A stretch of 64,000 nt of DNA from Ignavibacteriota bacterium (GCA_016218085.1 JACREY010000022.1:1-64000); one strand, 5' to 3'; shown: positions 37,868 to 41,700, numbered from the stretch's first letter. The notes: a model not told the origin generated them from the letters alone. Made by a program: numbers and translations.

Positions 37868-38881
37868 TTAATTTTTTAAAATCCCTTCCATTAATTCATT
37901 TACCACTTTATTGCCGCTTCCCTCAATCTGATAAACAGGTATTTCCTCAAAAATATCTTTGAACCTCATCCCTGTAATAAACAGTATTTTCGATAAAACC
38001 ACACCTTTCTCGCAGTTACCGTAAATAACTGTTGCACTTCTTGATGTCACAGACGGGAATCCTGTCCTTGGGTTAAATATGTGATGATACCTTACCGAAT
38101 CTATAATCCTGAACCTCTCGTAATCCCCGCTTGTAAGCACGCCTGTGTTTTCAACTTCAAAAGATGCAGTGATTAAATCGTTTTTCCTTGGGTCCTTTAT
38201 TCCAACCACCCATTTTCTCCCGTTCGCTTTTCTGCCGCTTGCATAAATATCCCCTCCACCGCTTATCAGGAAATCATTTACCCCTCTTTTTCTTAATTCT
38301 TCAACAGCCCTGTCAAGTGCGTATCCCTTTGCTATCCCGCCTAAATCAATCAAAACTCCTTCCTTTGCAAAACTAATTGTCGAATCTTCATAGTTAAGCT
38401 TAATAAAATTGTAATCGACTGAACCTAATAGCTTCTTTATCACCGTGGATTCAGGCGGTGTCTCAATAGGATGCTCTGAATTGAATCCCCAGTAATTAGT
38501 AAGCGGTCCTACGCTTATATCAAAATACCCTTCAAATAACTTTGAATACTTAATGCTCCTATCAATCAAACCGAACAATTCTTTTGATAATTTGACCGGC
38601 TTCCTGTATGCATTCCTGTTGACATAGCTTATTTCAGTCGAATCTCTGTAATTACTTGTGAAATTTTCAATTCGCTCAACTTCCTTTAATGCATAGTACA
38701 TTGCCTTTTTACCCGAATCGATGCTCGTATGAACTGCAGTGATTTGAAATTCCGTTCCCATCAGATACTTGCCGGCTGACATTTCGAACTTAACTTCATC
38801 CTGAGAATGAATTTTTCCGTATGCAAACAAAAAAAGGAACATCGAAATAATCAGTGTTCCTTTAAAATTTATATTTTTCAT
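37868..38881 (-). CDS. apbE: FAD:protein FMN transferase ApbE
   Basis: It attaches FMN covalently to Ser/Thr of extracytoplasmic redox proteins, using FAD. The 337 residues include a signal peptide (to about 27, HSQ), then LMGTEFQITA, VERIENFTSNYRDSTEI, FDISVGPL, DLGGIAKGYALDRA, FLISGGGDIYASG, and TSGDYERF with HHIFNPRTGFP, the Mg/FAD site. It is the last gene of a six-gene minus-strand run with redox proteins, 14 bp after the NusG-II gene, so its substrate is probably encoded there. Confidence 0.93.
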   Translation of the reverse strand: MKNINFKGTLIISMFLFLFAYGKIHSQDEVKFEMSAGKYLMGTEFQITAVHTSIDSGKKAMYYALKEVERIENFTSNYRDSTEISYVNRNAYRKPVKLSKELFGLIDRSIKYSKLFEGYFDISVGPLTNYWGFNSEHPIETPPESTVIKKLLGSVDYNFIKLNYEDSTISFAKEGVLIDLGGIAKGYALDRAVEELRKRGVNDFLISGGGDIYASGRKANGRKWVVGIKDPRKNDLITASFEVENTGVLTSGDYERFRIIDSVRYHHIFNPRTGFPSVTSRSATVIYGNCEKGVVLSKILFITGMRFKDIFEEIPVYQIEGSGNKVVNELMEGILKN

Positions 38882-38895
38882 TTAATCCTTTTTTA

Positions 38896-39534
38896 TTATT
38901 CGGCAAATATGTGCAGCTCGTTTGGTATGCAGGTAATATAATCACCGGGTTTCCTAATGGAGCTCATCTGTTTGCAGATTTTATGCCTGCATTCAGTGTC
39001 TTTTACTTTTACGGAACTGCCCGTTACATCAATTACCATTTTGCCTGTTTTGCCGTTGAGTGTATATATGCCTGAATTACCGGGTGAAAGCTTAGAAATT
39101 ATGATTCCTTTTTTTGCAATTATAATATTCTTCACTTCAAAGCCGCTATTCCTGTATAATCTTACTCTCACGGGATTTGTTAACATCCCGGGAAGACTCA
39201 GCATATCCCTTATCTCCCTTAACTTCAATCCTGTATCATCAAATGATCTCGTGTAATCGACAAGATTATTATCTTTAACAAAAATCAGGTCTCCCATTAC
39301 GCTTCCTGCTACAGGATATTCGGAATAATTTATGCTTCCGCTCCCGAGCATTCCGCTTTTGGCGAACTCTTCAAGCATCTGTACCGCCAAATCAGCATTG
39401 CCCGTTATTACCTCCAGTGAAAAATTCTCCCCTTCTGCCGGAGCGCCTGCCAGCATTGATTTTGCGGCATTCGGAAGTACCATCCCCGCTGCTGCAAAAA
39501 TACCCGCTGCTTTTAAAAAATTTCTTCTGTCCAT
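38896..39534 (-). CDS. Tat-exported protein with NusG domain II
   Basis: The protein has 212 residues. A twin-arginine signal (MDRRNFLKAAG, then alanine-rich) implies folding or cofactor insertion before export. Residues ~130-212 match NusG domain II: KGIIISKLSPGNSG, GKMVIDVTGSSVKVKDTEC, HKICKQMSSIRKPGDYITCIPN. The two conserved Cys clusters are intact. NusG-II proteins are known near ApbE in other bacteria. The function is unknown; electron transfer or metal binding is inferred from context. Confidence 0.85.
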   Translation of the reverse strand: MDRRNFLKAAGIFAAAGMVLPNAAKSMLAGAPAEGENFSLEVITGNADLAVQMLEEFAKSGMLGSGSINYSEYPVAGSVMGDLIFVKDNNLVDYTRSFDDTGLKLREIRDMLSLPGMLTNPVRVRLYRNSGFEVKNIIIAKKGIIISKLSPGNSGIYTLNGKTGKMVIDVTGSSVKVKDTECRHKICKQMSSIRKPGDYITCIPNELHIFAE

Positions 39535-39538
39535 TTTG

Positions 39539-40681
39539 TTAAATTGATATTTTAAACCCTAATGATATTAAATATGCATACAAATCATTCATCCTCATTG
39601 CCCAGTCAGGAGAATCTGTATGCCTGTGATAAAAACCAATGCTTCCTAAAAAAGTCAGTTTTTCATTATTTAAAACCGGTATCCTGTTTTCCTTATTCCC
39701 TTTGTAAGAGAATCCGAGTGATACGTCGTTCGTGTAACCCGAATTAAGCTTGCTGTCAACTGCCATTAACGGCTCAACCTCAGTATATATCTCCTTGAAG
39801 AAATATGCCCTGGTCTGAATGTACTGCCTGTATGAAAATATCATATTCAGGTTTTCGGTGAGATGTGTCTTAAACTGCGCTTCCGCTGTATGCGACCTTA
39901 TATCCCACGTGTCCCAGTAATATCTGTAACCTAAAAGTATTGTTGACAATCGGGATATTCCGAAATTAGTTCTTATTCCCGCAGCCTTCCTTATTCTTTT
40001 CTCCGGCGTTACAGGCTCTAATGTCTTTAAAAAGAATCCGTTTACAATCCTCACTACCTGGTATCCGTCAAGCATGTAACCATCGACATTGGTTAAAGAA
40101 AAATCCAGCTGTGTCACTATTTTTTTAGAAAGAATCTGAGTCAGACCGAAATTAAAACTGTTGGTAGTTCTGTCCTTAGTCCATGTTCTTGTCTGAGGAA
40201 AAATTTTATCGAAATTACCTGCATACCCCAGCTGAAGCACGGTATTCTTTTTCGCAAAGGGAATCGAGATGTTTGCCGTAAAGGTTCTTGAAGAGTAATC
40301 GTGCTCTGTGCTGTACATTCCGTTTGCCGAAACAGTAACATCCGAAAAATTCCTGGTCACGCCAAGACTTACCTGATGCCTTAGTTCATCAGGTGTATCA
40401 TCGGCACCGCCGTATTTATTTGTCGTGGCTGATGTTATTCCGTCAACCTGAAATTTCGTTTTCATAGATGCGGAACTGATTGCATCAACAAGATATGAAC
40501 CAGTAACAGAGGTATTTTTATCCAGGCTCTTGGTTACATTTATTGTCGGATATATAACATTCAGTCTGAAATTATCGAAGTATGAATTGAAATTCACCTG
40601 TATCTCTTCTTCCGGCAGTTCCTGAGTCAAAACGTAAGAAGGAAGTATTATCAGAATTAAAAAAAACAATTTTTTAACCAC
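39539..40681 (-). CDS. DUF3570 outer-membrane protein
   Basis: The protein has 380 residues, starts at GTG 40681 and has a signal peptide ending about residue 20 (VLTQ). The body is barrel-like, with alternating strands and family segments NVIYPTINVTKSL, VSLGVTRNFSDVTVS and FNFGLTQILSKKIVTQLDFSLTNVDGYMLDGYQVV. Two N-terminal motifs resemble ApbE flavinylation sites: D66-A-I-S-S-A-S72 and D80-G-I-T-S-A-T86. The start overlaps the DUF4266 stop by 8 bp. Co-location with DUF4266, TlpA and ApbE supports a joint redox role. Confidence 0.87.
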   Translation of the reverse strand: MVKKLFFLILIILPSYVLTQELPEEEIQVNFNSYFDNFRLNVIYPTINVTKSLDKNTSVTGSYLVDAISSASMKTKFQVDGITSATTNKYGGADDTPDELRHQVSLGVTRNFSDVTVSANGMYSTEHDYSSRTFTANISIPFAKKNTVLQLGYAGNFDKIFPQTRTWTKDRTTNSFNFGLTQILSKKIVTQLDFSLTNVDGYMLDGYQVVRIVNGFFLKTLEPVTPEKRIRKAAGIRTNFGISRLSTILLGYRYYWDTWDIRSHTAEAQFKTHLTENLNMIFSYRQYIQTRAYFFKEIYTEVEPLMAVDSKLNSGYTNDVSLGFSYKGNKENRIPVLNNEKLTFLGSIGFYHRHTDSPDWAMRMNDLYAYLISLGFKISI

Positions 40682-40886
40682 AGCCGCAGCCTCCTCCCTG
40701 TGAACCGTTCCCGCCTTCGGACCCTTCCCTGATATTAATATAATGCTCTTTTATTCCCTTCTGTATTGGATTTTCATCAAACATCATGTTAGGGTCGGAT
40801 AACCTTTCGCGCTCCCAGGGCTGTACAACGGCACATCCGGATAATGCAGCAAATAAAAACAATATGAAAAAATAAAATAATTTCAA
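40674..40886 (-). CDS. DUF4266 small lipoprotein
   Basis: The protein has 70 residues. The start is a TTG at 40886; the signal ends in the lipobox ALSGC (Cys18). The mature ~53 residues carry the family pattern VQPWERERLSDPNMMF and a Gly-rich end SQGGGCGCG with two Cys. It overlaps the DUF3570 gene. It is always a tiny companion of DUF3570 in the clusters I know. The CGC end could bind a metal or form a disulphide, which would explain the adjacent thioredoxin-like gene; that part is inference. Confidence 0.85.
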   Translation of the reverse strand: MKLFYFFILFLFAALSGCAVVQPWERERLSDPNMMFDENPIQKGIKEHYINIREGSEGGNGSQGGGCGCG

Positions 40887-40889
40887 TTT

Positions 40890-41381
40890 CTATTCTTTTA
40901 ATAAAGCTTCGATTTCACTTTTGAATTTTTCTTTTTCACCCGGGTCGTATCCTACTGTAATAAATTTTACCACGCCATTTTTATCAATTATTAAAGTCGT
41001 AGGAATTCCTTCCACTTTGTAAAGATTGCCGATTTTGGAATCCGGATCCGAAATATTTTTAAATTTCACTTCTTTACCGAGTTTTTTGATGAAAGCTGTC
41101 ATGTTTTTGACATCTTCATCCAGATTAATTCCAAGCACGGAAAAATCCTTATCTGAATACTGGTCATAAAGCTCTATAAGAAAAGGAAAACCTTCCTTGC
41201 AGGGCCTGCACCAGCTTGCCCAGAAATCAACCACAAGAACTTTTCCTTTAAAATCAGACAGGCTGACAGTTTCTCCGCCCGCAGTCTTGCCGCTGAACTC
41301 AGGAGCCGGCTTGCCTTTTTCCTGTGCGAAAATTAAAAAAGGTAAAAATAAAATTAATAATGCTAAATGTATTTTCTTCAT
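40890..41381 (-). CDS. TlpA-like thiol:disulphide oxidoreductase
   Basis: The protein has 163 residues. A signal peptide (about 1-20, IFAQ) is followed by the thioredoxin-fold domain with the active site WASWCRPC (Cys58 and Cys61), VVDFWASW before it, and the cis-Pro loop VEGIPTTLIID. It acts in the periplasm as a reductant or maturation factor, probably for the Cys-containing neighbours or for cytochrome c haem attachment. The start is 10 bp after the cytochrome gene stop. Confidence 0.92.
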   Translation of the reverse strand: MKKIHLALLILFLPFLIFAQEKGKPAPEFSGKTAGGETVSLSDFKGKVLVVDFWASWCRPCKEGFPFLIELYDQYSDKDFSVLGINLDEDVKNMTAFIKKLGKEVKFKNISDPDSKIGNLYKVEGIPTTLIIDKNGVVKFITVGYDPGEKEKFKSEIEALLKE

Positions 41382-41391
41382 GCTATTTTTT

Positions 41392-41700
41392 TTAATTTAA
41401 TCTCTTTGATCTTGTATCGTCTTTTTCTTCCCAATTCCTTCCGTGACATTGAATGCAGGAAGGCGTCCACCTGTACACGCCGTTTATCTTTACTGACATT
41501 CCCTTGATATTATCTGTATGGCACTCCATGCAGTCATCAAATTCAATTTCTTTTCCTGTTTCCTTATGCATTATTCCTTTCAAATTTCTGGTGTGGTCCG
41601 GAAGCAGTGCATCCCTCGGTGCTGTGGGAAAAATTCCGTCACAACTGCTTATAATTGCAGCAAGTGCAAATAACGCCAATATTGTTAAGAATATTTTCAA
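41392..41700 (-). CDS. Small diheme c-type cytochrome-like lipoprotein
   Basis: The protein has 102 residues and starts at TTG 41700. The lipoprotein signal ends ISSC (Cys20). Two haem-binding motifs are visible: CMECH (57-61) and CIQCH (82-86). The short spacing and small size resemble multihaem cytochrome-type domains rather than class I cytochromes. It is the first gene of the six-gene redox run and probably delivers or accepts electrons at the membrane surface. Confidence 0.8.
   Translation of the reverse strand: MKIFLTILALFALAAIISSCDGIFPTAPRDALLPDHTRNLKGIMHKETGKEIEFDDCMECHTDNIKGMSVKINGVYRWTPSCIQCHGRNWEEKDDTRSKRLN

Follow-up and report, generated by a model that had tools for sequence, protein, structure and literature searches.

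A cytochrome-equipped variant of the ApbE/DUF3570 flavinylation cluster in an Ignavibacteriota bacterium, with a predicted surface-side flavin site

The window analysed here, a stretch of 64,000 nucleotides from an Ignavibacteriota bacterium (GCA_016218085.1 JACREY010000022.1:1-64000), carries a six-gene cassette that represents the known ApbE/DUF3570/thioredoxin/DUF4266 flavinylation cluster in a variant with a cytochrome of its own. In the direction of transcription, its genes encode a diheme lipoprotein, a TlpA/ResA-like thioredoxin, a DUF4266 lipoprotein, a DUF3570 protein, a protein with a twin-arginine translocation (Tat) signal and a NusG_II domain (Tat-NusG_II), and ApbE, the transferase that attaches flavin mononucleotide (FMN) from flavin adenine dinucleotide (FAD) to proteins. 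DUF3570 is the only substrate found for the only ApbE of this genome, and it is predicted to form a 16-strand outer-membrane barrel with its flavin loop at the cell-surface end. We assign a probability of about two in three (0.66) to the explanation as a whole, in which a NusG_II-aided ApbE would furnish the barrel with surface FMN and a periplasmic relay would connect to it. That DUF3570 is an ApbE substrate is a correct inference but an already published one; the new elements are the cassette variant with its diheme lipoprotein and Tat-NusG_II protein, the association of NusG_II with apbE and the predicted surface-side flavin site, for none of which a description was found in the papers available.

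DUF3570 as the substrate of ApbE

The first-pass annotation of this DNA had proposed DUF3570 as the flavinylated protein, pointing to two motifs, DAISSAS and DGITSAT, at nucleotides 40424-40486. Counted from the GTG start at 40681, their codons run from 40486 to 40424, exactly as described, and a scan of the six proteins for D-x-x-[ST]-[GS]-A-[ST] returned no other match, in agreement with the earlier remark that no comparable motif occurs elsewhere in the run. When the DUF3570 sequence was shuffled, at least one motif appeared in 0.4% of cases and two motifs in 0/20,000.

Homologues were taken from DUF3570 loci sampled from the phylum and from 79 named loci across many phyla. In their alignment, the loop between strands 3 and 4 contains at least one [ST][GSAN][AS][ST] site in 118 of 119 full-length DUF3570 proteins, and the D-containing form of the motif is nearly absent outside this loop (5 in all), so that the motif proved to be kept among homologues when it was checked by alignment, as the annotation had suggested. 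Inspection of the alignments revealed that the second motif is retained among cassette members as D-G-[IV]-[ST]-S-A-[ST], and at L036 and L037, which are of the Chloroherpetonaceae type, DUF3570 carries three motifs. Motif 1 has been lost from a clade whose members have no linked apbE (L032, L033, L104, L119, L121, L130); this clade keeps TGA[ST] in the loop, with the Asp present in some members only, and its genomes have apbE at other sites. A comparison of loci with linked and unlinked apbE was also tried as a test of the motif, and it is not discriminating because all of the genomes searched whose DUF3570 has no nearby apbE (10/10) carry apbE elsewhere.

In the genome of the window, which is 98.3% complete, ApbE, DUF3570 and NusG_II each gave a single match, while the three other substrate families tested (FMN_bind, NqrB/RnfD and DUF2271) gave none. 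Together with the conserved motif loop, this strongly supports DUF3570 as the flavinylated protein, a role that Méheust et al. 2021 (PMC8238504) reported for the family. In that study, ApbE/DUF3570/thioredoxin/DUF4266 clusters were described, ApbE-associated DUF3570 proteins were found to have two conserved [ST]GA[ST] motifs, and Chlorobium luteolum DUF3570 was flavinylated with its cognate ApbE at both of them, with both Ser-to-Ala changes needed for loss (PMC8238504). No other paper naming DUF3570 or DUF4266 was found in the literature searched, which mostly did not reach into subscription journals.

The canonical ApbE motif is D-x-x-[ST]-G-A-[ST], and a Gly-to-Ala change at position 5 lowered the flavinylation of another substrate to about 50% (PMC12052999). 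Since both motifs of the window protein have Ser at this position, its modification by its ApbE is likely but unproven; Ser, Ala or Asn are common at position 5 in other DUF3570 proteins. The same serines could be taken to mean that the motif resemblance is vestigial in this DUF3570 and that ApbE serves something else, which is, however, very improbable given that the genome holds none of the other substrate families tested, that motif 2 persists in cassette members and that the Chloroherpetonaceae members even have three motifs.

A predicted outer-membrane barrel and the position of its flavin loop

A search by sequence gave no convincing solved relatives of DUF3570. Its AlphaFold2 model, built from 56 sequences, has 16 long strands (predicted local distance difference test, pLDDT, 87.3; predicted template modelling score, pTM, 0.82), and its best structural neighbours according to VIA-align are the outer-membrane barrels BamA (Z 21.0), BcsC (20.1), PelB (20.0) and PgaA (4y25, 19.2), which likewise have 16 strands. 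The C-terminus of the model superposes on the C-terminus of the neighbours' barrels. Furthermore, the model has an even number of strands, its last strand lies at the C-terminus, and short turns on one side are paired with long loops on the other. Outer-membrane barrels usually have both termini in the periplasm, and when the termini are placed in this way, the periplasmic turns have a mean length of 4.3 residues and the extracellular loops of 15.9, with the flavin loop, 29 residues long in the window protein, on the presumed extracellular side.

The distribution of conserved residues also points to this side. Of the 45 most conserved residues, 38 lie in the extracellular third of the strands or in the extracellular loops, as compared to 183 of 354 positions overall (hypergeometric p 1e-6; 8e-6 without the motif). 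As the loops of porins are usually their most variable part, a conserved site at the extracellular mouth is noteworthy. A flavinylated barrel could alternatively hold its flavin loop in the lumen or at the periplasmic face, and reduce periplasmic disulfides, metals or siderophore-bound iron instead of delivering electrons to the surface. Such an arrangement would be compatible with the low confidence of loop 71-97 (pLDDT under 50), with the conserved polar residues that are found in the strands as well as in the loops, and with the thiol and iron chemistry suggested by the thioredoxin and CXC partners of most clusters and by VIT1 in 25 published clusters. We nevertheless regard it as quite unlikely, because conservation is concentrated at the long-loop end, which is outside by the canonical orientation of barrels.

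The cassette, its partner proteins and the proposed electron route

Gene calls and Pfam matches bear out the six-gene run listed by the first-pass annotation: the genes form a single tight run on the minus strand, from 41700 to 37868, in which neighbouring genes overlap or are separated by a few bases (Table 1), and the run is flanked by the unrelated pyrF (orotidine 5'-phosphate decarboxylase) upstream and an NlpC/P60 gene downstream. No Fur box was found in the 64-kb window, and promoter and terminator scans gave matches at chance level.

Table 1. Genes of the cassette and codons of the two flavinylation motifs (window coordinates; aa, amino acids).
Feature	Coordinates	Strand	Remarks
Diheme lipoprotein, 102 aa, TTG start	41392..41700	-	Lipobox Cys20; haem sites CMECH and CIQCH; family alignment of 15 sequences
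TlpA/ResA-type periplasmic thioredoxin, 163 aa, active site WCRPC	40890..41381	-	Pfam Redoxin/AhpC-TSA, 3e-29
DUF4266 lipoprotein, 70 aa, Gly-rich C-terminal tail ending in GGGCGCG (CXC)	40674..40886	-	Pfam, 6.5e-20
DUF3570 protein, 380 aa, GTG start at 40681, predicted 16-strand outer-membrane beta-barrel	39539..40681	-	Pfam, 5.9e-43; AlphaFold2
Flavinylation motif 1, D66-A-I-S-S-A-S72	40466..40486	-	Extracellular end of strand 3 (predicted)
Flavinylation motif 2, D80-G-I-T-S-A-T86	40424..40444	-	Loop 70-98
Tat-signal protein with C-terminal NusG_II (DUF1312), 212 aa	38896..39534	-	Pfam PF07009 above cut-off, 1.5e-11; weak TAT_signal match
ApbE (FAD:protein FMN transferase), 337 aa, signal peptide	37868..38881	-	Pfam, E=1e-70

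The same gene order occurs in Ignavibacteria, Kapabacteria, Calditrichaeota, KSB1, Gemmatimonadetes and Chloroherpetonaceae, with TlpA as a variable member (none was detected in cassette loci L034 and L035), and it is partly present in Latescibacterota and Eisenbacteria, where the contigs end within the locus. Loci L082 and L084 have retained DUF3570 together with the diheme protein, TlpA and DUF4266 but have no nearby apbE, and their genomes have apbE elsewhere, each time downstream of genes that look Nqr-like by eye. In a 119-row DUF3570 tree, both loci group with the 16 NusG_II cassettes, and together they make up one side of a branch with a Shimodaira-Hasegawa-like approximate likelihood ratio test (SH-aLRT) value of 100, and the cassette state requires one change. 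The nearest named relatives are Ignavibacteria metagenome bins, with up to 69% identity. Of the 91 loci whose flanks are complete, 86 have DUF4266 close to DUF3570, 82 a TlpA-like protein and 66 ApbE; all full-flank NusG_II cassettes (11/11) contain ApbE, DUF4266 and the diheme protein as well, and NusG_II and the diheme protein co-occur with a p of 3e-11 when kinship is ignored. Several DUF3570 copies surround TlpA, DUF4266 and ApbE at L061:4478-14456 and L063:6894-11127; in L061 a gene with eight CXXCH motifs lies upstream and ApbE is followed by a DsbD gene, and L063 has a similar TlpA-matching gene.

In the model of the Tat-NusG_II protein, the C-terminal part (residues 132-212) has the NusG_II (DUF1312) fold, with Z values of 11-14 against solved structures (4esn 14.3, 3ld7 13.7), and the N-terminal domain gave weak matches, with Z under 5, in a search with the whole model. 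The RRxF Tat motif and the C182-x-H184-x2-C187 ... C202-x-P204 pattern are invariant in 14 NusG_II homologues. Tat often exports proteins with cofactors loaded in the cytoplasm, and the invariant RRxF, C182, H184, C187 and C202 would suit an electron carrier of the cassette that binds a metal or an Fe-S cluster through CxHxxC...C, matures in the cytoplasm and acts between the diheme protein and DUF3570 after export. This role is unlikely, as the nearest NusG_II relatives of solved structure are uncharacterised and NusG_II also immediately precedes apbE in Rnf and FAD-export loci that have neither DUF3570 nor the diheme protein. A Tat-NusG_II gene of about 245 codons directly precedes apbE at L170:1492-2232, L173:1501-2244 and L174:1012-1743, and the L173 pair adjoins Rnf genes, without DUF3570. 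In locus L159, likewise without DUF3570, a shorter NusG_II gene lies between an EetB-family gene (PF07456) and apbE, followed by two ATP-binding cassette (ABC) ATPases and a CbiQ-type gene, and EetB is an FAD-export subunit in Listeria (PMC9973259). Because NusG_II joins apbE in these Rnf and flavin-export loci as well, it is probably an accessory of ApbE or of FAD supply, and their repeated pairing points to a helper of protein flavinylation that is still to be characterised.

The diheme lipoprotein matches cytochrome c profiles weakly, and no convincing solved relatives were found by sequence. Its family has one haem site of the form CX2CH or CX4CH and a second of the form CX2CH, and H36 and H45, which are invariant in the alignment, could be the distal haem ligands. 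A homologue with eleven CXXCH motifs is present at L037 and L081. In the Chloroherpetonaceae locus L081 (L081:870-3482 and L081:5998-7176), a cytochrome b C-terminal gene and a gene for an 870-amino-acid protein with eight CXXCH motifs lie upstream of the cassette and a CcmF-like gene downstream. At L032:5763-8036 and L121:4767-7010, DUF3570/DUF4266 pairs without linked apbE are found near an HzsA-like diheme protein of about 750 amino acids, whose middle domain is of the hydrazine-synthase-alpha type (PF18582, E about 1e-21) and which contains two CXXCH motifs. The C-terminal CXC of DUF4266 is present in 124/124 distinct homologues, and where both could be placed, its distance from the lipobox Cys is 49 residues, as median and as minimum.

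In the explanation that we favour, ApbE, probably aided by the Tat-exported NusG_II protein, would act in the periplasm and attach FMN to S72 and T86 of DUF3570. Attachment would most likely precede folding of the barrel into the outer membrane, since ApbE works in the periplasm and the finished barrel would hold the loop on the opposite side. Once folded, the barrel would expose its FMN loop at the extracellular mouth, which is conserved and polar. A relay that runs from DsbD via TlpA to the CXC-ending DUF4266, or the diheme lipoprotein, or both, would link the periplasm with the surface flavins. The window genome has two DsbD-type membrane proteins (DsbD_TM) on other contigs, and no DsbD match on the window's own contig. 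Surface flavins and periplasmic carriers would together let electrons cross the outer membrane by way of flavins. A more specific version, which we put forward only tentatively and with some doubt, is a compact conduit in which two FMNs (three in some relatives) at the extracellular mouth of the 16-strand barrel are wired by the diheme protein and by the CXC-tailed lipoprotein reaching into the barrel, with maturation by NusG_II.

Several points weigh against the favoured explanation. In addition to the serines at position 5, the barrel orientation follows the usual rules for outer-membrane barrels, and the flavins could fold into the lumen, given the low confidence of the loop. The helper role of NusG_II is assigned by guilt by association, and the diheme protein is a putative partner of DUF3570. 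Most DUF3570 clusters are without a linked diheme protein and contain DUF4266, the CXC lipoprotein, and a protein resembling thioredoxin instead, so that the diheme protein may not be the source of the electrons, which could run to or from the flavins. The earlier suggestion of an outer-membrane electron-transfer device fed by the cytochrome is upheld with regard to the barrel, by the AlphaFold2 model and the asymmetry of loop lengths, while feeding by the cytochrome is unproven. Flavins and conserved residues predicted to lie on the surface side, together with a cytochrome of its own, make it a testable claim that electrons cross the outer membrane via a flavin-bearing barrel in poorly studied phyla.

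Comparison with known systems

The closest known counterparts are the 'DsbD systems' (PMC8238504), which have the four core genes (ApbE, DUF3570, thioredoxin-like and DUF4266) in common with the window cassette, as well as the two ApbE motifs in DUF3570 and the CXC end of DUF4266. The window differs from them by the added diheme lipoprotein and Tat-NusG_II protein, by a thioredoxin of the TlpA/ResA-like type, by Ser in place of Gly in both motifs and by the lack of a linked DsbD, which is linked in only a subset of the published clusters; the main text of PMC8238504 mentions neither NusG nor a barrel.

The FAD exporter of the Listeria extracellular electron transfer (EET) locus, EetB/FmnA/EcfAA' with ApbE (PMC9973259), is resembled by L159, where NusG_II is again found with apbE. 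The window cassette, in contrast, has no linked transporter genes, and its NusG_II protein is extended by a Tat signal and a further N-terminal domain. Listeria EetA may be a NusG_II protein too.

Lastly, the cassette can be set beside porin-cytochrome conduits of the MtrCAB/PioAB type. It does not combine a multihaem MtrA-like cytochrome with an MtrB-like barrel, as it has two CXXCH motifs only and a predicted barrel of 16 strands. Its proposed barrel bears covalent flavins, and it has two haems as compared to about ten. Without any claim of relatedness, the window cassette and these conduits share the pairing of a barrel with a haem protein as the proposed route for electrons across the outer membrane.

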